Positions 37,092 to 59,480 of a DNA stretch of 64,000 nt are shown piece by piece (position 1 is the first letter of the stretch; the number at the start of each line of letters is the position of its first letter). This stretch comes from Crossiella sp. SN42. Lineage in GTDB: Bacteria; Actinomycetota; Actinomycetes; Mycobacteriales; Pseudonocardiaceae. Both the position numbers and the translations under genes were made by a program. The notes beneath the pieces are model-generated. The model saw nothing but the letters and a program-made list of their open reading frames with translations. It searched no databases and was not told the DNA's origin. The stretch is taken from the NCBI RefSeq assembly GCF_023897065.1, contig NZ_JAMHIV010000023.1:62001-126000 (forward strand), read 5' to 3'.

Positions 37092-37721
37092 TCAACCCCC
37101 GAGCCCGGGGGCGGTTCGCCAGTCGGTCAGCCACTCCTCGGTGGCGATGGCAGGCAGCAGCACTCGCCACGCCTGCTCCATCCGGGTGACGTAGTCCGCG
37201 TACCCGGTGAGGGCCGCGGCGATCTCCCGGTTACCAGCGAACACGGCGTTGAGCAGTCGCGCCACCTCCACCGGGTCGGCGCCTGCTCGCAGCAGGCCTT
37301 CGTCCCGCGACCGCTCCAGCAGCGCGGTCAGCAGGGACTCCCAGTTCAGGTACTGCGGGCGCAGGCCGGAGGCGTGCACCTCGGGGTCGGTGGACAGACG
37401 CACACCCGCGCGGACAATGGGGTCGCTGGAGATCAGCTCGACGGCCTGGGTGGTGGAGCCGATCAGCGTGCGCAGGGCGTCCAGGCCGCGTTCGTCCCAG
37501 CGGCGGGTGAGCTCCGGCCAGATCGCCTGCTCGGCCTCCATGATGGCCGCGGCCAGGCCGATCTTGGACGGGAAGTGGAAGTAGAAGGCCCCTTTGGACA
37601 CGCCGCTGCGCTCCAGGATGAGGCTGAGCGGGACGGCGGCATAGCCGAGCCGGTCGAACTCGGACGCGGCGGCGACCATGATCGATTCTCGGGTGACCTG
37701 GGCCCTGGACTGCTGGGGCAT
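37092..37721 (-). CDS. TetR regulator resembling gamma-butyrolactone receptors (ScbR/ArpA type)
   Basis: A 209-residue TetR protein. The DNA-binding helices are at about 5-50 (RAQVTRESIMVAAASEFDRLGYAAVPLSLILERSGVSKGAFYFHFPSK). That region and the following IMEAEQAIWPELTRRWDERGLDAL closely follow the pattern of butyrolactone autoregulator receptors. The C-terminal half would bind a lactone ligand. The ATG at 37721 has GGAG 5 nt upstream; a perfect 16-bp palindrome lies 18 bp before it. It may be a receptor or a pseudo-receptor, since no synthase is adjacent; an AfsA-like gene is 18 kb away at 56003. Confidence 0.8.
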   Translation of the reverse strand: MPQQSRAQVTRESIMVAAASEFDRLGYAAVPLSLILERSGVSKGAFYFHFPSKIGLAAAIMEAEQAIWPELTRRWDERGLDALRTLIGSTTQAVELISSDPIVRAGVRLSTDPEVHASGLRPQYLNWESLLTALLERSRDEGLLRAGADPVEVARLLNAVFAGNREIAAALTGYADYVTRMEQAWRVLLPAIATEEWLTDWRTAPGLGG

Positions 37722-37738
37722 GACGGCTCCGGTGATCA

Positions 37739-37754
37739 CTTGCGGTACCGCAAG
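37739..37754. promoter_or_regulatory. perfect palindrome, probable TetR operator
   Basis: CTTGCGGTACCGCAAG (16 bp, perfect dyad) is 18 bp upstream of the receptor-like TetR start. A further GCGGTA word lies just beyond on the minus strand (37763-37758). The position fits autoregulation. Confidence 0.6.
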
Positions 37755-48781: not shown

Positions 48782-49627
48782 TCAGGCGAAGCTGAACGCG
48801 CCCCGGTCCAGGGTGACGCCGCCCTCCTTGGTCTCGGTGCGGAAGGCCACCTCGGTGCCCTCGGCCCAGGCGTGCACGATCAGCTCCTGGCCGGGCAGCA
48901 CCGGGGCGGTGAACCGGCCGAAGATCCGGCGCACCCTGCTGACCTCGCCGCCGCAGAAGTGGCCGGTGAGCAGCCGGGCGGTGATGCCGTAGGTGCACAG
49001 GCCGTGCAGGATCGGCCGCGGGAACCCGCCCCGCCCGGCGAAGGCCGGGTCGGAGTGCAGCGGGTTGTGGTCGCAGCCGCCCAGCCGGTACAGCAGGGCC
49101 TGGCTGGGCGCGGTCTGGAAGGTGAGCACCGCGTCCGGCTCGCGCGCCGGCGGCGCCCACTCCTCCGACGGACCGCGTTCGCCGCCGAACCCGCCCTGGC
49201 CGCGGACGAACACCGAGGACATGGTGGACAGCAGCGGTTCGCCGTTGATCGTGCTGCCCTCGGTCCTGGCCACCACCAGGGCGCCCTTGCCCTTGTCGAA
49301 GACGTCGGTGACCGTGCGGCGCAGGCTCATCCGGCCCTCGGCCGGCAGCGGCCGGTGCAGCACCAGTTCCTGCTCGGCGTGCACCAGCAGGGCCGGGTCG
49401 AAGTCGCCGAAGGACTGCGCGGGGCCGCCGAACTGGGCCAGCACCACGCCGAAGGTGGGCAGCACCTGCTGCTCGACCCCCGCGGTGTTCTCGGTGGTGT
49501 AGGCCAGTTCCGCCAACGGGTCCTCGGCGCCCGCGCCGACGCCGAGCGCGTACAGCAACGCCTCCTCCGCCGTCCAGCTGCGTTCCCACGGGCCGACTGC
49601 GCGGCCCACCGCGGACAGGTCGATCGG
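48782..49627 (-). CDS. MaoC-type enoyl-CoA hydratase (double hotdog)
   Basis: A 281-residue peroxisomal-type 2-enoyl-CoA hydratase. The N-terminal half is a degenerate hotdog; the C-terminal MaoC half has the catalytic Asp/His in GGCDHNPLHSDP. It hydrates trans-2-enoyl-CoA to (R)-3-hydroxyacyl-CoA. TTG 49627 is chosen as start because GGGGAG lies 7 nt upstream and the protein then begins M-PIDLSAVG, as relatives do; a GTG at 49660 has no ribosome site. In operon with the dehydrogenases and ligase upstream. Confidence 0.88.
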   Translation of the reverse strand, partial: PIDLSAVGRAVGPWERSWTAEEALLYALGVGAGAEDPLAELAYTTENTAGVEQQVLPTFGVVLAQFGGPAQSFGDFDPALLVHAEQELVLHRPLPAEGRMSLRRTVTDVFDKGKGALVVARTEGSTINGEPLLSTMSSVFVRGQGGFGGERGPSEEWAPPAREPDAVLTFQTAPSQALLYRLGGCDHNPLHSDPAFAGRGGFPRPILHGLCTYGITARLLTGHFCGGEVSRVRRIFGRFTAPVLPGQELIVHAWAEGTEVAFRTETKEGGVTLDRGAFSFA

Positions 49628-49643
49628 CAACTTCTCGCTCCCC

Positions 49644-50813
49644 TCAGCCGAGTGCGCCACGCACGTTCGCGTGGCCCTTCAACAGGTTCCGGGCGATGGT
49701 GCGGCGCTGGATCTCGTCGGTGCCCTCGTAGATGCGCAGCAGGCGCAGCTCGCGGTACCAGCGCTCCAGCGGGAGTTCCTTGGTGTAGCCCATGCCGCCG
49801 TGGATCTGCAGCATGCGGTCGACGATCTCGTTGGCCTTGATGCCGCCGTAGAGCTTCGCCATGGACTGACCCTGCCGGGAATCCAGGCCCGCGTCCACCT
49901 GCCAGGCGGCGGTGAGCACCAGCCAGCGCAGCGCCTCGATCTCCACCGCGGAGTCGGCCAGCATCCACTGGATGGCCTGCCGCTCGGCCAGCAGCTCGCC
50001 GAAGGTCTCCCTGGTGCGCGCGTAGTCCAGGCCGAACTCGACCAGCCGGACGCAGGCGCCCAGCGCGCGGGCGGGCAGCAGGTAGCGGCCGCGGCCGATC
50101 CAGCTCATGGCCAGCGCGAAGCCCTGCCCGACCTCGCCGAGCACGTTCTCCTGCGGCACCCGGACGTTGTCGAAGACCAGCGCGGCCGGCCCCCACTCGC
50201 CCATGGTGGCGATCGGCTCGGACTTCCAGCCCATGTCCCGGTCCACCAGGAAGCAGGTGACGCCGCCGTTGGCGCCCTTGTCCTTGTCGGTGACCGCGAA
50301 GACCATCACGAAGTCGGCGTCGTTGCCCTTGGTGATGAAGGTCTTCTCACCGTTGATCACCCAGTCGTCGCCGTCCCTGACCGCGCTGGTCCGGATGGCC
50401 TTGGCGTCCGAGCCCGCGCCCGGCTCGGTGATGGCGAAGCAGGAGATCCGGTCACCGGCGATGGTCGGCAGCAGGTACTTCTCCTTCTGCGCCTCGTTGC
50501 CGGCGTAGAGGATGTTGTCGGCCTCGCCGCCGAAGTGGAAGGGCACGAAGCTGTAGCCCAGCTCGCCCTCGACCAGCGCGGTCATCACCGCGCCCAAGCC
50601 CATGCCGCCGTAGGCCTCCGGGGTCTGGATGCCCCAGAACCCGGCCGCCTTGGCCTTGAGCTGCAACTCGCGCAGCTCGTCCCTGGTGATGCCCGGCTGG
50701 CCGAGGCGTTCCCGGCGGAGCACCTCCGGCTCCAGCGGGATGAGCTCCTTGCGGACGAAGTTGCGCACCCAGTCCCGGATGTCGCGTTCGGTGTCGTTGA
50801 GGGAGAAGTCCAT
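49644..50813 (-). CDS. acyl-CoA dehydrogenase
   Basis: A 389-residue flavoprotein that makes the 2,3-double bond of acyl-CoAs. Signatures: AITEPGAGSDAKAI (FAD/substrate region), the GEWGPAALVFDNVRVP segment and the C-terminal QIHGGMGYTKELPLERWYRELRLLRIYEGTDEIQR, where the Glu of YEGTDE is the catalytic-base position. ATG at 50813 (MDFSLND). 16-bp gaps to the SDR and MaoC genes on either side make it part of one operon. Confidence 0.94.
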   Translation of the reverse strand: MDFSLNDTERDIRDWVRNFVRKELIPLEPEVLRRERLGQPGITRDELRELQLKAKAAGFWGIQTPEAYGGMGLGAVMTALVEGELGYSFVPFHFGGEADNILYAGNEAQKEKYLLPTIAGDRISCFAITEPGAGSDAKAIRTSAVRDGDDWVINGEKTFITKGNDADFVMVFAVTDKDKGANGGVTCFLVDRDMGWKSEPIATMGEWGPAALVFDNVRVPQENVLGEVGQGFALAMSWIGRGRYLLPARALGACVRLVEFGLDYARTRETFGELLAERQAIQWMLADSAVEIEALRWLVLTAAWQVDAGLDSRQGQSMAKLYGGIKANEIVDRMLQIHGGMGYTKELPLERWYRELRLLRIYEGTDEIQRRTIARNLLKGHANVRGALG

Positions 50814-50829
50814 TGCGCTGCTTGCCTTT

Positions 50830-51585
50830 CTAGCGGCCACCGTCGACGTAGAGGATCTGACCGTTGATGAACGAGGAGTCCTCGCTGACCAGGAAGGCCA
50901 CCGTGTTCGCGATGTCCTCCGGCTTGCCGGTGCGGCGCACCGAGATCTGCTCGGCGGCGGCCTTCTTGAACTGCTCGAAGTCCATCCCGATCCGGGCCGC
51001 GGTGGCCGCGGTCATGTCGGTCTCGATGAAGCCGGGGGCGATGGCGTTGACGTTGACGCCGAACGGGCCCAGCTCGATGGCCAGGGTCTTGGTGAAGCCC
51101 TGCAGGCCCGCCTTGGCCGCGGCGTAGTTGGCCTGGCCCCGGTTGCCCAGCGCGGAGGTGCTGGACAGGTTGACGATCTTGCCGAACTGCTGCTGCACCA
51201 TGTGCTTCTGCGCGATCTGGCTGCACAGGAAGGCGCCGCGCAGGTGCACCGACATGACCGTGTCCCAGTCCTCGTCGGTCATCTTGAACAGCAGGTTGTC
51301 CCTGGTCACCCCGGCGTTGTTGACCAGGATGTGCAGCCCGCCCAGCTCGGCGACCACCCGGTCGAAGGCCGAGGTGACCTGCTCGCGGCTGGTCACGTCG
51401 CAGCCGATGCCCACCGCCCTGCCACCGGCGTCGGTGATCGCCTTGACGGTCTCGGCGGTGGCCGCCTCATCCAGGTCGATCACCGCGACCGCGGCGCCGC
51501 GCTCGGCCAGCGTGCGGGCGGTGGCCGCGCCGATCCCGCGTGCCGAGCCGGTCACCACCGCGACGCGTCCGTCCAGAGTTCCCAC
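50830..51585 (-). CDS. SDR-family 3-oxoacyl reductase / 3-hydroxyacyl-CoA dehydrogenase (FabG-like)
   Basis: A 251-residue classical short-chain dehydrogenase. NAD(P) motif TGSARGIG (about 12-19), NNAGV, catalytic Ser in LSSTSAL and YxxxK as YAAAK, ending in LYVDGG. By context it oxidises the (R)-3-hydroxyacyl-CoA made by the MaoC enzyme; a biosynthetic FabG role is the alternative. GTG at 51585 with AAGGGA upstream. Confidence 0.93.
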   Translation of the reverse strand: MGTLDGRVAVVTGSARGIGAATARTLAERGAAVAVIDLDEAATAETVKAITDAGGRAVGIGCDVTSREQVTSAFDRVVAELGGLHILVNNAGVTRDNLLFKMTDEDWDTVMSVHLRGAFLCSQIAQKHMVQQQFGKIVNLSSTSALGNRGQANYAAAKAGLQGFTKTLAIELGPFGVNVNAIAPGFIETDMTAATAARIGMDFEQFKKAAAEQISVRRTGKPEDIANTVAFLVSEDSSFINGQILYVDGGR

Positions 51586-51599
51586 GAGTTTCCCTTTCC

Positions 51600-53135
51600 T
51601 CACTTGACCTTGCCGGTGGCCACCCACTGGCGGAGCTCGCGCTTGAGCACCTTGTGGCTGGGGCCAACGGGCAGTTCCTCGACCACGACGACCCGTCGCG
51701 GATACTTGTGGTGGCCAAGGCGCTCCCTGGTCCAGGCGATCACCTCGTCCTGGGTGACCTGCTGTCCCGGCTTGGGCACCACCACGGCGCAGACCTCCTC
51801 ACCGCTGCGCTCGTCCGGCAGGCCGATCACCGAGACCTCGGCGATGGCGGGGTGCCGGATGAGCATCTCCTCGACCTCGCGCGGGTAGACGTTGAACCCG
51901 CTGCGGATGATCAGGTCCTTCTTGCGGTCCACCACCGAGAGGTAGCCCTCGGCGTCCTTGACCCCGATGTCGCCGGTGCGGAACCAGCCGTCCACCACGG
52001 CCGCCTCGGTGGCCGCCGGGTCTTCGAGGTAGCCGGCGAAGACGTTGTGCCCCCTGATGACGATCTCGCCGCTCTGCCCGGCCGGCAGGAACTCGTTCCG
52101 CTCGTCGATCGCCGGGTCCACCACCTCCACCTCGACGCCCCAGATCGGGTGGCCGACGGTGCCCGGCCGCGCGCCGAAGACCGGCTGGTTGACGGTGGCC
52201 GTCGGCGAGGTCTCGGACAGGCCGTAGCCCTCCAGGATCTCGGTGCCGAAGCGTTCCTGGAAGGCCTCCAGCACGGCCACCGGCAGCGGCGCCCCGCCGG
52301 AGGTGCACCCGCGCAGCTGGGGCACCTCGGCCTGGCCCTCGCTGACCTCCAGCAGCCGCAGGTACATGGTGGGCACGCCAAGGAAGATCGACACCTGGTG
52401 CCTGCGCATCAGCTCCAGCGCCTCGGCGGCGTCGAAGCGGGGTTGCAGCAGCAGGGTGGCGCCGACCCGGAAGCCGGAGTTCATCGCGCTGGACTGACCG
52501 AAGATGTGGAACAGCGGCAGGCAGCCCAGGATCACGTCTCCCGCGGCCAGCTTGTCCACGTCGAAGGCGGCCACGGTGGCGTTCATGACCAGGTTGAGGT
52601 GGGTGAGCACGGCGCCCTTGGGGCGGCCGGTGGTGCCGGAGGTGTAGAAGACCACCGCCGGGTCCTCCGCGGCACGGGTGCGGAAGGTGGGCAGCGGGTC
52701 GGTGGCCGCGGCCAGCTCGGTCAGCGAGGGGTGCTCGGGAGTGGCCGGGCCGAGCGTGCGCAGCTCGACCCCGGCGGCCTTGGCGGCGGGCGCGCCGAGG
52801 TCCAGCTGGGAGACGTGGCAGAGCACCAGCTTGGCCTTGGCGTGCGAGATCAGGTAGGTGGCCTCAGCCGGCACCAGCAGCAGCGGGATCGGCACCACCA
52901 CCGCGCCGGCGGCCAGCACGCCGAAGTAGGACTCGACGAAGCCGATCACGTTGGGGGCCACGATCGCGACCCGGTCGCCCTCCCGGACGCCCAGCTCGCG
53001 CAGGGCCGCGGCGTGCCGCCTGGCCCGCTCCCAGAGCTCCGGGTAGGTGAGCTGCTGGTCGCCCTGGATGAGGGCGACCCGTTCGCGGTGCAGCCGCGCC
53101 GACTCCGCGAGGACCATCGCCAGCGAGAGAGTCAT
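51600..53135 (-). CDS. long-chain fatty-acid-CoA ligase (FadD-like)
   Basis: A 511-residue acyl-adenylate-forming enzyme that activates a carboxylic acid to its CoA ester. Motifs: YTSGTTGRPKG (P-loop), YGLSETSP, DGWFRTGDIG, DRKKDLIIRSGFNVYP and the catalytic Lys in PSHKVLKREL. First gene of a six-gene minus-strand run; the ATG at 53135 has GGAGG 4 nt upstream. Transcription is probably controlled by the divergent TetR through the palindrome at 53174. Confidence 0.94.
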   Translation of the reverse strand: MTLSLAMVLAESARLHRERVALIQGDQQLTYPELWERARRHAAALRELGVREGDRVAIVAPNVIGFVESYFGVLAAGAVVVPIPLLLVPAEATYLISHAKAKLVLCHVSQLDLGAPAAKAAGVELRTLGPATPEHPSLTELAAATDPLPTFRTRAAEDPAVVFYTSGTTGRPKGAVLTHLNLVMNATVAAFDVDKLAAGDVILGCLPLFHIFGQSSAMNSGFRVGATLLLQPRFDAAEALELMRRHQVSIFLGVPTMYLRLLEVSEGQAEVPQLRGCTSGGAPLPVAVLEAFQERFGTEILEGYGLSETSPTATVNQPVFGARPGTVGHPIWGVEVEVVDPAIDERNEFLPAGQSGEIVIRGHNVFAGYLEDPAATEAAVVDGWFRTGDIGVKDAEGYLSVVDRKKDLIIRSGFNVYPREVEEMLIRHPAIAEVSVIGLPDERSGEEVCAVVVPKPGQQVTQDEVIAWTRERLGHHKYPRRVVVVEELPVGPSHKVLKRELRQWVATGKVK

Positions 53136-55583: not shown

Positions 55584-56006
55584 TCAGTAAATCGGATAAG
55601 CCCTGCCGAGTGCCATGGCGATGGCCAGGGTGTCCTCGACGACCCGGTACTCATGAATCAGCCCGGCCCGCACGGAAAGACTCACCGCGAAATCCTGGGC
55701 GAACACGCGACCGGTTCCGGTGGCCCGGTATCGGCCGCCGCCGAAGACCACCGCATCATCACCGTCGACCAGGACCTTTCGCACGGTCACCGCGTGGAAC
55801 TCCAACCGGTGGAACAGTGCCAGGAAGAACGCCTCGATTTCCCGGCGGCCATGGGACCGCACCGGCCAGGGATCTCCCGGAATTTCCGAGGAATGGCACT
55901 GCGCGTCCACGTGGAACAACTGTGCGATGCCCGCGGCATCCTGCGCACCGAATCGGGTGAGCAGTCGTTGCACCATTTCCAGCGTGGAGGACGTCCGATT
56001 CGTCAT
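55584..56006 (-). CDS. SnoaL/SgcJ-like NTF2-fold protein
   Basis: A 140-residue NTF2-like protein: MVQRLLTRFGAQDAAGIAQLFHVDAQC near the start, PVRSHGRREIEAFF, then VLVDGDDAVVFGGGRYRATGTGRVF. The ATG at 56006 overlaps the stop of the AfsA-like gene (ATGA), so both are made together; a role in finishing or changing the signal molecule is possible but unproven. Ketosteroid-isomerase-type folds are found in many pathways. Confidence 0.83.
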   Translation of the reverse strand: MTNRTSSTLEMVQRLLTRFGAQDAAGIAQLFHVDAQCHSSEIPGDPWPVRSHGRREIEAFFLALFHRLEFHAVTVRKVLVDGDDAVVFGGGRYRATGTGRVFAQDFAVSLSVRAGLIHEYRVVEDTLAIAMALGRAYPIY

Positions 56007-56893
56007 GACACCGGCCCGGCGCCGGGCGCCAGCCGCCAGGCCGCGGTCGCCGCCCGCTGGCCGTCCTGCTCCACCGCGACCCAGCACATGCCGTTCGCGG
56101 TGCGCAGCACGCTCACCTCGGCCGGCCGGTCCAGCTCGACGAACCGGCCGGTGCGGGCCTGGCAGGAGACCAGGTATCCGGGACCCACGACGGCCCGGAC
56201 CGCCTGGCGCATGGCCGCGAAGACCACCATGCCCGGCACGTGGTCGACCGCGTGGTCGAACAACGCCGGATGGCTGGCATCCACCAGCAGGCCCCAGCGG
56301 TTCGCCTTGTTCACGCTGGTCAACAACACGTCCCTGACATCGCGCCTGCCCACCAGTTCCGGCGGCACCGGCGCCGGCCGCTCACCGGCCGCCTGGCTGG
56401 GCACCCTTGGCGGGCGCAGCCTGGCGTACACCGCGGGCGGCAGCGCGCCCAGCGTGCCGCCGCCCTGACCGAACCGGCGGCCCTCCCGGTACAGCTCGGC
56501 CTCCACCGCGAGCGTGGAGGCGTGCCCCGGCCGAACCCTCGGATCCCTGGTGCGCACCACCAGCTGGATGTCGACCGGCCGGTCGCCGGCCCGCAGCGCC
56601 GCAGGATCGACGGCGTAACTCATTCCGCGCATGACGAACTTGTGGTCCAGCGGTATGTCCCAACCCGTATGGGCAATCAACAGCCCGGTTTGGCGAATGG
56701 TCTCCAGTATCAGCAGCGGGTCGGCCCGGCCCTGTTCTGGCTGGTAGAAGGCGTGCGCCCGGGGTAGCTGGGCACAGATCCGGAAGTCGCCGGTGCGGCG
56801 GCGCACCCATCTGGTCAGCAGCACCTCGGCCACGGACTCGCGATGCACCAGCCTGCGCGGTACGGTCGTGTCGAATCCCTCCTCTCCACTCAT
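56003..56893 (-). CDS. AfsA-like gamma-butyrolactone (A-factor type) synthase
   Basis: A 296-residue protein with the two AfsA hotdog repeats: about 12-150 (VHRESVAEVLLTRWV, RAHAFYQPEQGRADPLLILETIRQTGLL, and a second block AVDPAALRAGDRP) and about 185-285 (NKANRWGLLVDASHPALFDHAVDHVPGMVVFAAMRQAV). AfsA joins a beta-ketoacyl chain to dihydroxyacetone phosphate, the key step for butyrolactone hormones. The ATG at 56893 faces the receptor-like TetR gene across about 127 bp. Longer open frames to the right are antisense noise. Confidence 0.88.
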   Translation of the reverse strand: MSGEEGFDTTVPRRLVHRESVAEVLLTRWVRRRTGDFRICAQLPRAHAFYQPEQGRADPLLILETIRQTGLLIAHTGWDIPLDHKFVMRGMSYAVDPAALRAGDRPVDIQLVVRTRDPRVRPGHASTLAVEAELYREGRRFGQGGGTLGALPPAVYARLRPPRVPSQAAGERPAPVPPELVGRRDVRDVLLTSVNKANRWGLLVDASHPALFDHAVDHVPGMVVFAAMRQAVRAVVGPGYLVSCQARTGRFVELDRPAEVSVLRTANGMCWVAVEQDGQRAATAAWRLAPGAGPVS

Positions 56894-56961
56894 TTCGAGT
56901 GCAACGAATAGTGAGTCTTTGCTCTTCGGCACCTGGTCGTTGCCCAACCGCAACATGTCGG

Positions 56962-56990
56962 CCAACATACCGGTACAGATTAGTTTCGAC
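56962..56990. promoter_or_regulatory. possible autoregulatory element (ARE-like) between synthase and receptor
   Basis: The divergent space contains CCAACATACCGGTACAG (from 56962) followed by TTAGTTTCG. ACATACCGGT resembles half-sites reported for butyrolactone receptors. A full palindrome is not evident, so this is tentative. Confidence 0.35.
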
Positions 56991-57020
56991 GGCAAGAACA
57001 CCTGGATGGCGGAGCAGTCG

Positions 57021-57692
57021 ATGTTCAAGCGTGAACAATCGAGCAACACGAAGCAAAGCCTGCTGCTGGCGGCAGCGAACACTTTCGACCGGAAGGGCTT
57101 TCTCGGTACCAATCTCACCGACGTTTGCGCAAGTGCGGGCGTCACAAAAGGGGCTCTGTACTGCCATTTTCCCTCGAAGGAAGCACTCGCGGTCGCTTTG
57201 ATCGAGACCCAGTTACGTCTCTGGCACGAAGTCCACCACCATTTGGCCCAGCAGCCATTGAGCCCGATGCAGTCGCTCATCGATCTCTCACACGAGTTCG
57301 GCAACCGGTTGCGCACCGATGTGCGGGCCAGGGTGGGCGTCCGGCTGCTCTTCGAGGCCGACCTGTTCGACCGCGAGGCGGGCGGTCAGTTCCACGGCTG
57401 GGTCACCATGGTCCGCGATCTGTTGATCTTGGCGGGCGCGGCTGGGCAGCTACGGCCCGAGGTGCATCCGAGGGAGGCCGCGGAGTCCCTGGTGGCCGCC
57501 TTCACCGGCACCCAGCTGCTGTCCAGGGCGACCAGTGGACATGACGACCTGACGGCCAAGTTCACCGCGCTGTGGCGGCTGTGGCTGCCCGCCCTGGTGG
57601 TGCCCTCGGCCTTGGTCACGCTGCGCATCGGCCCACCGGTGAGCGAGCCGGAAGTCTTCGTGCCGGTCCAACAAACCGCCGGTATCACCTGA
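57021..57692 (+). CDS. TetR-family butyrolactone receptor-like protein (ArpA type)
   Basis: A 223-residue TetR regulator: helix-turn-helix at about 10-58 (KQSLLLAAANTFDRKGFLGTNLTDVCASAGVTKGALYCHFPSKEALAVALIE), then the ligand domain. Its place beside the AfsA-like gene and the ArpA-like DNA-binding part support a hormone receptor that represses its targets until the lactone binds. The ATG at 57021 has GGAG 6 nt upstream; M at 57006 is an alternative. An in-frame TTA leucine codon at 57213-57215 makes translation likely to depend on the rare Leu-tRNA (BldA type). Confidence 0.85.
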   Translation: MFKREQSSNTKQSLLLAAANTFDRKGFLGTNLTDVCASAGVTKGALYCHFPSKEALAVALIETQLRLWHEVHHHLAQQPLSPMQSLIDLSHEFGNRLRTDVRARVGVRLLFEADLFDREAGGQFHGWVTMVRDLLILAGAAGQLRPEVHPREAAESLVAAFTGTQLLSRATSGHDDLTAKFTALWRLWLPALVVPSALVTLRIGPPVSEPEVFVPVQQTAGIT

Positions 57693-57736
57693 TCTGATCC
57701 GGCCACGGCGGCGGCGGGCGCGGCAGGGTGAGGACC

Positions 57737-58228
57737 ATGCGCGACAAGAGGTCCCGCCCGGCAAGCACCGCCGTCGACTGGCAGGAGTGCCTGCGCCTGC
57801 GGCCCGCGCTGCTGCGGCTGGCCAGACAACGCTGCCCAGCCGGCGCCGAACCCGAGGACCTGGTGCACGAGGCACTCACCCAGGCCGCCGAGCTCGGCCG
57901 GGTGCCACCGGACCGGCTGGCCGCGTTCCTGGCCCTGGTGGTCGGCAGGCTGTGCGCGGAGGAACACCGGCGGCAGCACGAGGACGCGGCCCTGTTCGAC
58001 CACCCCCGGCTCCGGCCGAGCACCCCGGAGGATCCGACCGAACGGGTCAACGACCGGTTGGAGGGACGCTGGTTCCGGCAGCGGCTGCGGGACTTCTCCA
58101 CCCGCGACCGCAACCTGCTGCTGCTCTTCGCCGACGGCCTGCCGCACACCGAGATCGCCAGGGAGCTGCGCACCACGGTGGGCGCGACGCAGTCGGCGCT
58201 GCATCGCATCCGGGAGAGGTTGCGTTAG
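57737..58228 (+). CDS. ECF-type sigma factor-like protein
   Basis: A 163-residue sigma-70 family protein: a region 2-like part at about 14-75 (LRPALLRLARQRCPAGAEPEDLVHEALTQAAEL) and region 4 at about 110-160 (LRDFSTRDRNLLLLFADGLPHTEIARELRTTVGATQSALHRIRERLR). Region 2 is less conserved than in the sigma at 27811. It lies 44 bp after the receptor gene on the same strand and may be its target. ATG at 57737; a GTG at 57728 is possible. Confidence 0.8.
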   Translation: MRDKRSRPASTAVDWQECLRLRPALLRLARQRCPAGAEPEDLVHEALTQAAELGRVPPDRLAAFLALVVGRLCAEEHRRQHEDAALFDHPRLRPSTPEDPTERVNDRLEGRWFRQRLRDFSTRDRNLLLLFADGLPHTEIARELRTTVGATQSALHRIRERLR

Positions 58229-58286
58229 GTCACAAGTCAGTGGTGGGAGCAACGGGTGGGTGAACTCGGCTGCTAGATGTACGGAC

Positions 58287-59480
58287 ATGCGGGTTCACCA
58301 CCTCAACTGCGCGAGCATGGCTCCGCTCGGCGGGCGGCTGATCAACGGCGACGCCCCGCCGCACCGGGCGGCCCGGCTGGTCGCGCACTGCCTGCTGATC
58401 GAGACCGAGCAGGGCCTGGTGCTGGTGGACACCGGGCTCGGGCTCGACGACCTGCGCTCGCCGGGCAGGCTGGGCGCGCTGTTCCGGCTTTCCTGCCGGC
58501 CGAAGCTGGCCGAGAGTGAGACCGCGGTCCGGCAGATCGCCCGACTGGGTTATTCACCGGCGGACGTCCGGCACATCGTGCTGACCCACCTGGACCTGGA
58601 CCACGCGGGCGGGATCGCGGATTTCCCGCAGGCCAAGGTGCACGTGCATGCCGAGGAATACGCCGCGGCAATGGCCAGGCGAACCTTGGGGGAACGTTCG
58701 CGCTATGTGCCGGCGCAATGGGCGCACGGCCCGGACTGGGCCACATACGACCGGACCGGAGGCGAGGGCTGGTTCGGCTTCGAGGCGGTGCGGCAACTCG
58801 ACGGACTTCCGCCGGAGATCCTGCTGATTCCACTGGCTGGACACAGCCACGGCCATAGTGGAGTCGCGGTGGCGGCCGACGGCGACCGCTGGCTGTTGCA
58901 TGCCGGGGACGCCTACTTCTTCCACGGCGAGGTCAATGGGCGGCCGTCTCGCGGCACCCCGGGGCTGGACCTATTCCAATCCGTGGTGGCGGTCAACCGG
59001 ACAAAACGTCTGGACAACCTGCGCAGGCTGCACGCGCTGGCGGCGGCGCAACCCCAGCGGATTCAGGTCTTTTCCGCGCACGATCCGCTGGAGTTCGAAC
59101 GCTGTGGTTCCGCGAACTCAGGAAGCGTGGGCTTCCTGGAACTTCACGACCAGCTCCTGCGGAATGCGGCCGCGCTCGGAGACCTGGTGGCCCTGGGTGC
59201 GGGCCCACTGCCGAATCTCCTGGTTGCGGTCGCGCTCGCCGGCGGCCTTGGCACCGCCGCCGCGGGTGGCCCGCTGCTTGCGGCCACCGGTGCGCCGGGC
59301 CGCGGCGACATACGCCGCAACGGCGTCGCGAAGAGCCGCCGCATTGTCCGCGGACAGGTCGATGACATAGTCGACGCCGTCGAGCCCGAAGGAGACGCTC
59401 TCCTCAGCCTTCGACCCGTCGAGGTCGTCCACCAGCTCGACCGTGACTTTCTCCGCCATTTGCACTCCCCGTTTGGATAG
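58287..59480 (+). CDS. metallo-beta-lactamase-fold hydrolase, lactonase-like, open frame extended over lsr2
   Basis: An MBL-fold hydrolase. Metal motif THLDLDHAGG (HxDxDH form), then AGHSHGHSG, HAGDAYFF and a late FSAHDPLEF His match the glyoxalase II/AHL-lactonase group. The recognisable domain ends near residue 277 (about 59118), but no stop occurs until 59480. The last about 120 codons run antisense through the whole lsr2 gene. Either the stop was lost or the true end is misjudged. Next to an AfsA/ArpA pair, a role in removing a lactone signal is an attractive inference. Confidence 0.75.
   Translation: MRVHHLNCASMAPLGGRLINGDAPPHRAARLVAHCLLIETEQGLVLVDTGLGLDDLRSPGRLGALFRLSCRPKLAESETAVRQIARLGYSPADVRHIVLTHLDLDHAGGIADFPQAKVHVHAEEYAAAMARRTLGERSRYVPAQWAHGPDWATYDRTGGEGWFGFEAVRQLDGLPPEILLIPLAGHSHGHSGVAVAADGDRWLLHAGDAYFFHGEVNGRPSRGTPGLDLFQSVVAVNRTKRLDNLRRLHALAAAQPQRIQVFSAHDPLEFERCGSANSGSVGFLELHDQLLRNAAALGDLVALGAGPLPNLLVAVALAGGLGTAAAGGPLLAATGAPGRGDIRRNGVAKSRRIVRGQVDDIVDAVEPEGDALLSLRPVEVVHQLDRDFLRHLHSPFG
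59118..59459 (-). CDS. lsr2: nucleoid-associated protein Lsr2
   Basis: A 113-residue H-NS-like xenogeneic silencer. The N-terminal oligomerisation part (KVTVELVDDLDGSKAEESVSFGLDGVDYVIDLS) and the C-terminal AT-hook-like DNA-binding part with RGR (GHQVSERGRIPQELVVKF) are both intact. It coats AT-rich DNA and silences acquired or specialised-metabolite genes. The ATG at 59459 has GGGGAG 5 nt upstream. The entire gene lies opposite the extended MBL open frame. Confidence 0.95.
   Translation of the reverse strand: MAEKVTVELVDDLDGSKAEESVSFGLDGVDYVIDLSADNAAALRDAVAAYVAAARRTGGRKQRATRGGGAKAAGERDRNQEIRQWARTQGHQVSERGRIPQELVVKFQEAHAS

Follow-up and report, generated by a model that had tools for sequence, protein, structure and literature searches.

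The AfsA/ArpA and ScbA/ScbR systems of Streptomyces combine a gamma-butyrolactone synthase with a receptor encoded by a neighbouring gene. Butyrolactone-type receptors without a neighbouring synthase are also widespread, and the ligand they sense is often unknown. The avenolide and pristinamycin systems are P450-dependent receptor systems that are not known to include AfsA. Here we describe a locus of approximately 4 kb from Crossiella that encodes, in neighbouring genes, members of the same synthase and receptor families as the Streptomyces systems, as judged by curated cut-offs. The locus is part of a 64,000-nucleotide stretch (hereafter the window, to which all coordinates refer) of contig C16; the genome measures 9.7 Mb. 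The source is Crossiella or a close relative: the AfsA protein of the window is 83% identical to that of Crossiella sp. S99.2. The synthase and receptor genes are divergent with a shared spacer. In contrast to the Streptomyces systems, the locus adds a SnoaL-like gene that overlaps afsA by 4 bp as well as a pair of genes for a sigma factor and a metallo-beta-lactamase (MBL)-fold hydrolase after the receptor gene. Relatives of these additions were found in none of 29 other AfsA loci. With somewhat better than even confidence, we read this as a genus-wide gamma-butyrolactone-type locus in which AfsA makes and the ScbR-type receptor senses a signal, the SnoaL-like protein is linked to the receptor, and a possible contribution of MBL is the weakest step. 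The SnoaL-receptor partnership is a stronger feature than removal of the signal by MBL, which the data weakly suggest.

All five genes named in an initial annotation of this DNA, coding for an AfsA/ScbA-family synthase, a SnoaL-like protein, a ScbR-family receptor, an extracytoplasmic function (ECF)-type sigma factor and an MBL hydrolase, were recovered with the family models or domains that define them (Table 1). AfsA contains both hotdog domains in one protein, passes the ScbA/BarX equivalog model, and retains ETIRQ in the first and MRQA in the second domain in the alignment. We compared the locus across five Crossiella genomes: G000, G060 (same species as the window), G001, G002 and G003. 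In AfsA, the position three residues ahead of the second-domain Arg holds Ala in the window and in G001 but Glu in G003 and in all nine aligned proteins from outside the genus. The receptor passes the ScbR model, and its best sequence matches in the PDB are a TetR regulator (6srn), a gamma-butyrolactone receptor, AvaR1 and CprB. A second ScbR-family receptor (172.7 bits, also above the cut-off) is encoded approximately 19 kb from the first, at 37092-37739, next to an HTH_67 gene; the whole genome contains two ScbR receptors over the cut-off, both inside the window.

The 127-bp spacer between afsA and scbR is 98.4% identical to that of G002 and 89.1% identical to that of G003. Third codon positions of the two flanking genes reach 75-79% (G002) and 62-66% (G003), and the highest value for any gene compared is 88% and 81%, respectively; the spacer lies above both. 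Five other spacers are 46-100% identical to their counterparts in G002, the 100% case being the 44-bp scbR-sigma spacer, and four others range from 4% (at a 0.8-kb insertion) to 79% in the comparison with G003. The simplest reading of this conservation is a shared regulatory region, and the spacer is probably the operator region of the receptor. It contains an imperfect palindrome, ATGTCGG/CCAACAT, at 56955-56968, together with ATGTCGGCCAACAT and ACATACCGGT. The idea that this locus makes and senses a signal, already part of the initial annotation, is well supported by the synthase and receptor families around this highly conserved spacer. Family knowledge and conservation suggest the following mechanism: AfsA would make the acyl precursor from which a lactone signal derives, the receptor would repress both divergent units (afsA-snoaL and scbR-sigma-MBL) from the shared spacer, and binding of the signal would lift repression of both.

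Table 1. Features of the Crossiella locus with window coordinates
Feature	Position	Strand	Basis
SnoaL-like NTF2-fold protein	55584..56006	-	SnoaL_2 49.4 bits vs cut-off 27; AlphaFold pLDDT 90.6
AfsA/ScbA-family gamma-butyrolactone synthase, two hotdog domains	56003..56893	-	Pfam AfsA 140 bits; NF041195 305 vs 200 bits
Divergent afsA-scbR spacer, probable receptor operator region	56894..57020	.	More conserved in two congeners than third codon positions
ScbR-family TetR receptor/repressor	57021..57692	+	NF041196 182 vs 150 bits
ECF-type sigma factor, regions 2 and 4	57737..58228	+	Sigma70_r2 and r4_2 above Pfam cut-offs; TIGR02937 above cut-off
MBL-fold hydrolase, homologous part	58287..59105	+	Lactamase_B 71 bits; HxDxDH; lactonase-group fold
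Read-through tail of MBL reading frame, antisense to lsr2	59106..59480	+	Relatives stop near codon 278; ~55 bp missing vs G060

The minus-strand genes snoaL and afsA overlap by 4 bp (ATGA). On the plus strand, divergent from afsA, scbR is followed after 44 bp by the sigma factor gene and this, after 58 bp, by the MBL gene. The sigma factor had been described as divergent; the gene is present, but it runs in the same direction as the receptor gene. The order and strands of SnoaL-AfsA-ScbR-sigma-MBL-Lsr2 are unchanged in G001, G002, G003 and G060, and hence in 5/5 genomes of the genus. Since four other genomes share order and strands, the arrangement is more than a product of chance. Could a butyrolactone locus nevertheless lie beside an unrelated sigma factor and hydrolase, kept there only because the genus is young? 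That a sigma factor and an MBL beside afsA were seen only in Crossiella, and that the genus sample amounts to five genomes, would fit such adjacency without joint function. We consider this rather unlikely, because the order is kept at protein identities of 70-96% to G001-G003, the scbR-sigma spacing is constant at 43-44 bp, and the link between SnoaL and the receptor recurs in four other genera. Beyond the core, gene order varies among these genomes: G003 has no match to the major facilitator superfamily gene at its place, and its snoaL and SRPBCC genes are 0.8 kb apart.

Most AfsA loci that we examined contain synthase and receptor genes as neighbours. The closest AfsA proteins to those of Crossiella among the non-genus loci compared come from genus g56 (45-47% identity). 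The non-genus set comprised 29 loci, six of them shorter than 18 kb, and contained no relatives of MBL, SnoaL or the sigma factor by tblastn (0/29) and none of MBL or SnoaL by profile search (0/29). The sigma factor, assigned to the ECF type by the Sigma70_r2, r4_2 and TIGR02937 models, has relatives in 13/60 genomes at E<=1e-8 and was seen beside afsA only in Crossiella. Its gene is conserved in the genus; the protein may act as a signal transducer and probably extends the output of the system.

Outside the genus, the conserved partner of SnoaL is the receptor. SnoaL was searched in 200 genomes from the family Pseudonocardiaceae, 195 of them non-genus. At E<=2.2e-21, 16 of the non-genus genomes, from four genera (g8, g21, g27 and g56), gave 18 matches; second copies in G163 and G179 account for two of the 18 loci. 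In 18/18, snoaL is followed downstream by an ScbR-type gene of the same strand. By our own gene calls, it is directly next to snoaL in 13 loci, with gaps of -4 to 80 bp including seven 4-bp overlaps. In the other five (those of genus g21 plus both second copies), the receptor gene is 0.8-1.3 kb away and a second receptor is also present. An XRE-type gene was called in four of these five loci. Two ScbR-type genes occur in one stretch in L136-L138, L143 and L148, and XRE-type helix-turn-helix (HTH) relatives (cluster 11) were called in 7/18 loci. None of nine weaker SnoaL matches with loci has such a receptor within 1.5 kb. Outside the family, an incomplete survey of 396 genomes of the phylum that scored ten candidates per genome listed three further SnoaL matches at E<=1e-20; none has a full receptor relative in its 1.5-kb flanks, and one has a weak HTH-only match there. 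Across the 18 pair loci (12-18 kb each), tblastn detected no relatives of AfsA, MBL or the sigma factor; one stray local blastp match connects the sigma factor to a 285-residue protein in L147. The g8 loci and one g27 locus have flanking genes in common, but the neighbourhoods differ between genera, which argues that the link is not merely preserved synteny. From this gene linkage we infer that the SnoaL protein belongs to the receptor, as a neighbour of one receptor clade even where AfsA is absent.

The converse search led to the same genomes. In an incomplete survey that scored 14 candidates per genome, the 16 best non-genus receptor matches listed (E<=4.2e-46) coincide exactly with the receptors from the 16 SnoaL-receptor genomes. 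SnoaL lies within the 1.5-kb flanks of 13 of them and, for the other three, in the larger loci. The next matches listed are three AfsA-linked receptors from g56, one AfsA-linked receptor from G083, and one from G143 with neither AfsA nor SnoaL within 1.5 kb. Among eight SnoaL-linked receptors scanned with NCBIfam, six exceeded the 150-bit ScbR cut-off (157-174 bits), and the other two, with 147.8 and 135.6 bits, did not reach it. In a midpoint-rooted tree of 70 rows, from which three duplicate loci and short rows had been removed, the five Crossiella and 23 SnoaL-linked receptors are separated from the rest by a branch with support 97/91. Next to join are three AfsA-linked g56 receptors (99/98), and the other AfsA-linked rows lie outside. 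These clade statements are conditional, given the midpoint rooting and a program warning about long branches. A simple scenario would be that an AfsA-receptor pair gained SnoaL and that AfsA was later lost in other genera. Trp127, which may correspond to the ligand-site Trp of ArpA (W119), is present in 5/5 Crossiella rows, 40/44 AfsA-linked rows (three duplicate loci among them) and 15/23 SnoaL-linked rows. Its absence from 8/23 SnoaL-linked receptors would agree with a change of ligand in settings that lack AfsA.

A palindrome, ACCGNCGGT, occurs at most 220 bp upstream of snoaL in 10/18 SnoaL-receptor loci, namely in nine of the ten primary g8 loci and in L094 (the full set is L094, L095, L139, L141, L142, L144-L147 and L149). 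It is a candidate receptor operator in these loci. ACCGNCGGT is absent from the Crossiella afsA-scbR spacer, and no operator motif common to this spacer and the SnoaL-receptor loci could be established.

What could the SnoaL-like protein contribute? It fails the SnoaL polyketide cyclase model PF07366 (18.2 vs 28.4 bits) and passes the broader SnoaL_2 model. Its best NCBIfam match, which covers the C-terminal region of a sigma-70 model at 19.4 bits, raised the idea of a detached C-terminal domain from ECF41/SigJ-like sigma factors, which carry such a domain. This origin was set aside: the sigma factor of the locus reaches no more than 16.7 bits against the SigJ model, and the 18 SnoaL-receptor loci contain no sigma relative by tblastn. 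SnoaL-type folds include aldol cyclases, and the closest solved relative of the protein is a ketosteroid isomerase (36% identity). According to PMC7480387, the A-factor pathway continues after AfsA with dephosphorylation, aldol condensation and reduction. SnoaL might then be a biosynthetic enzyme that catalyses or steers the closure of a ring in the AfsA product by an aldol-type reaction, as the 4-bp overlap of snoaL with afsA in the genus would also suggest. We regard this role as doubtful. Outside the genus, the conserved neighbour of SnoaL is the receptor and not AfsA, which is missing from all 18 loci (12-18 kb) and has no match in 11 of the 16 genomes. AfsA occurs in 5/16 SnoaL-receptor genomes and in 56/179 others (p=1.0), and this independence argues against condensation as the general function of the subfamily.

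The gene linkage suggests instead that SnoaL most likely binds or chemically processes the ligand of the receptor. Tentatively, and as a possibility well short of even, we propose that SnoaL is a dedicated third component of a Pseudonocardiaceae receptor clade that makes, converts or hands over the ligand. Receptor and SnoaL would then form a synthase-independent unit, and Crossiella would keep the AfsA-SnoaL-receptor state. In the avenolide (Cyp17/Aco) and pristinamycin (SpbR/PapR3/PapR5 with SnbU) systems, as summarized in parts of PMC7554373, the ligand of an ScbR-type receptor is likewise associated with a neighbouring gene that is not afsA. Unlike in these systems, the constant neighbour in the SnoaL-receptor pairs is a SnoaL-like protein and not a P450 with an acyl-CoA oxidase. 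A literature search of titles and abstract openings, whose coverage left out most subscription papers, returned no report of a SnoaL-receptor pair and no study of butyrolactones in Crossiella. If SnoaL and the receptor form a dedicated pair, to which Crossiella attaches a synthase, this would be a new variation on butyrolactone signalling.

The MBL gene requires a correction before its role can be weighed. Its end had been placed at 59480, which is probably unnatural: 13 other MBL reading frames listed stop at codons 264-305, three other Crossiella frames among them at codon 278, and the G060 protein has 278 residues. The window assembly lacks approximately 55 bp, containing the MBL stop codon and a strong hairpin, between the convergent mbl and lsr2 genes at 59100-59120. 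Because this stop is missing, the reading frame runs antisense through lsr2 (59118-59459). The gap is either a real deletion or an assembly error at the hairpin, and the tail is probably not part of the ancestral protein.

The predicted fold of MBL (pLDDT 89) has quorum-quenching N-acyl homoserine lactone (AHL) lactonases as its best structural matches in Foldseek and VIA-align. VIA-align gave Z scores of 29.4 for AhlX (246 residues at 2.9 A; mutant chain), 27.6 for GcL (mutant chain), 26.6 for AiiB, and 25.5 each for AiiA and 4-pyridoxolactonase. The model thus indicates a lactonase-group MBL fold, which speaks for the fold and not for activity. Compared with AiiA, AttM, AhlX and GcL, the predicted structure matches the MBL fold over its whole length, but the sequence is only 20-25% identical. 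The protein, scanned with its read-through tail, stays below the cut-offs of all AHL lactonase equivalogs (AiiA, AttM, AhlS, AidB and YtnP; best 67.7 vs 375 bits). Instead of the HxHxDH metal motif it contains HLDLDH, with Asp in place of the second His in 19/20 aligned rows, the window included. This does not exclude lactonase activity, since the part of PMC6146095 on the putative AiiA-type lactonase Y2-AiiA notes a similar HxDxDH motif.

Distribution and neighbourhood tell against MBL as an old partner of AfsA, an idea that we rejected on these two tests. MBL relatives at E<=1e-40 occur in 91/195 non-genus family genomes (96/200 with the genus), and AfsA and MBL occur together in 32/195, about the chance expectation (Fisher p=0.28). 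Among 33 non-genus MBL loci with 1.5-kb flanks (the weaker-match loci L036-L048 were left out), none has AfsA nearby. In 19/33 a TetR gene of the LmrA/YxaF type lies directly upstream on the same strand of the MBL gene or of a tandem MBL pair; one of these 19 loci supplied the TetR query. The TetR-MBL pair is widespread in Pseudonocardiaceae (L052, L053, L056-L058, L060, L098 and 12 of L180-L199), and tandem MBL pairs occur in L029, L186, L190, L197 and L199. QsdA, a lactonase of Rhodococcus, has another fold than MBL. In its arrangement, the Rhodococcus qsd operon, in which the TetR regulator QsdR accompanies the lactonase QsdA (parts of PMC6262395), resembles the TetR-MBL units: a TetR lies beside a lactone hydrolase. 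Those parts name no signal synthase, whereas in Crossiella the regulator nearest to MBL is the ScbR-type receptor.

It is unlikely, on this evidence, that the locus is a self-contained module in which MBL acts as a lactonase that destroys the butyrolactone made there. Such built-in turnover would be consistent with MBL beside afsA in 5/5 genus genomes, with the structural ranking of AHL lactonases and 4-pyridoxolactonase, and with the precedent for HxDxDH. MBL relatives are also over-represented in SnoaL-receptor genomes (15/16 vs 76/179, p=8e-5). Because a single genus supplies ten of these 16 genomes and none of the 18 pair loci contains an MBL, we read this excess as ancestry; it nonetheless counts in favour of some MBL link. 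Against turnover stand the spread of MBL without AfsA association, its TetR neighbours, and its scores below every lactonase cut-off. Signal removal by MBL, as first proposed, therefore keeps the lactonase-group fold and the neighbourhood within the genus on its side, but not the equivalog cut-offs, the HxHxDH motif or an association with AfsA outside the genus. Conservation of the gene near AfsA likewise holds inside the genus (5/5 genomes) and fails outside it (0/29 AfsA loci, 0/33 MBL loci). MBL thus appears to have joined the locus in Crossiella. In the genus-wide make-and-sense reading that we prefer, MBL may trim lactone levels. This is the weakest step: a member of a widespread, often TetR-associated lactonase-group family stands on the receptor side of such a locus only in Crossiella.

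Several observations weigh against this preferred reading. The sigma-MBL spacer of 58 bp in the window measures 105 bp in G003, where it is 32% identical (exact gene ends), and a receptor-side operon of scbR, sigma factor and MBL is something that we infer. The nearest short-chain dehydrogenase/reductase (SDR) gene is 4.4 kb from the locus, inside a fatty-acid run. The SnoaL positions that appear invariant by eye (R18, D23, R55, E58, R76, D81 and D125) may be structural. All SnoaL-receptor pairs sampled come from one family, with 10/16 genomes from one genus (g8). Finally, since AfsA and the SnoaL subfamily are not associated across the 195 genomes, SnoaL need not act in the pathway of AfsA.

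The fatty-acid run itself occupies 48782-53135 on the minus strand and encodes a MaoC hydratase, an acyl-CoA dehydrogenase, an SDR and an acyl-CoA ligase; the last three were compared with G001-G003 and G060 and proved conserved there. These genes came up as possible contributors to signal biosynthesis.

The present analysis includes 18 receptor loci without a neighbouring synthase. For such receptors, a protein that accompanies one receptor clade across several genomic contexts gives a tangible lead to the ligand. The place to test the SnoaL-receptor idea is Crossiella, where a single locus holds AfsA, SnoaL and the receptor. If it is true that MBL acts on the signal, this genus would combine synthesis, sensing and removal in one locus.

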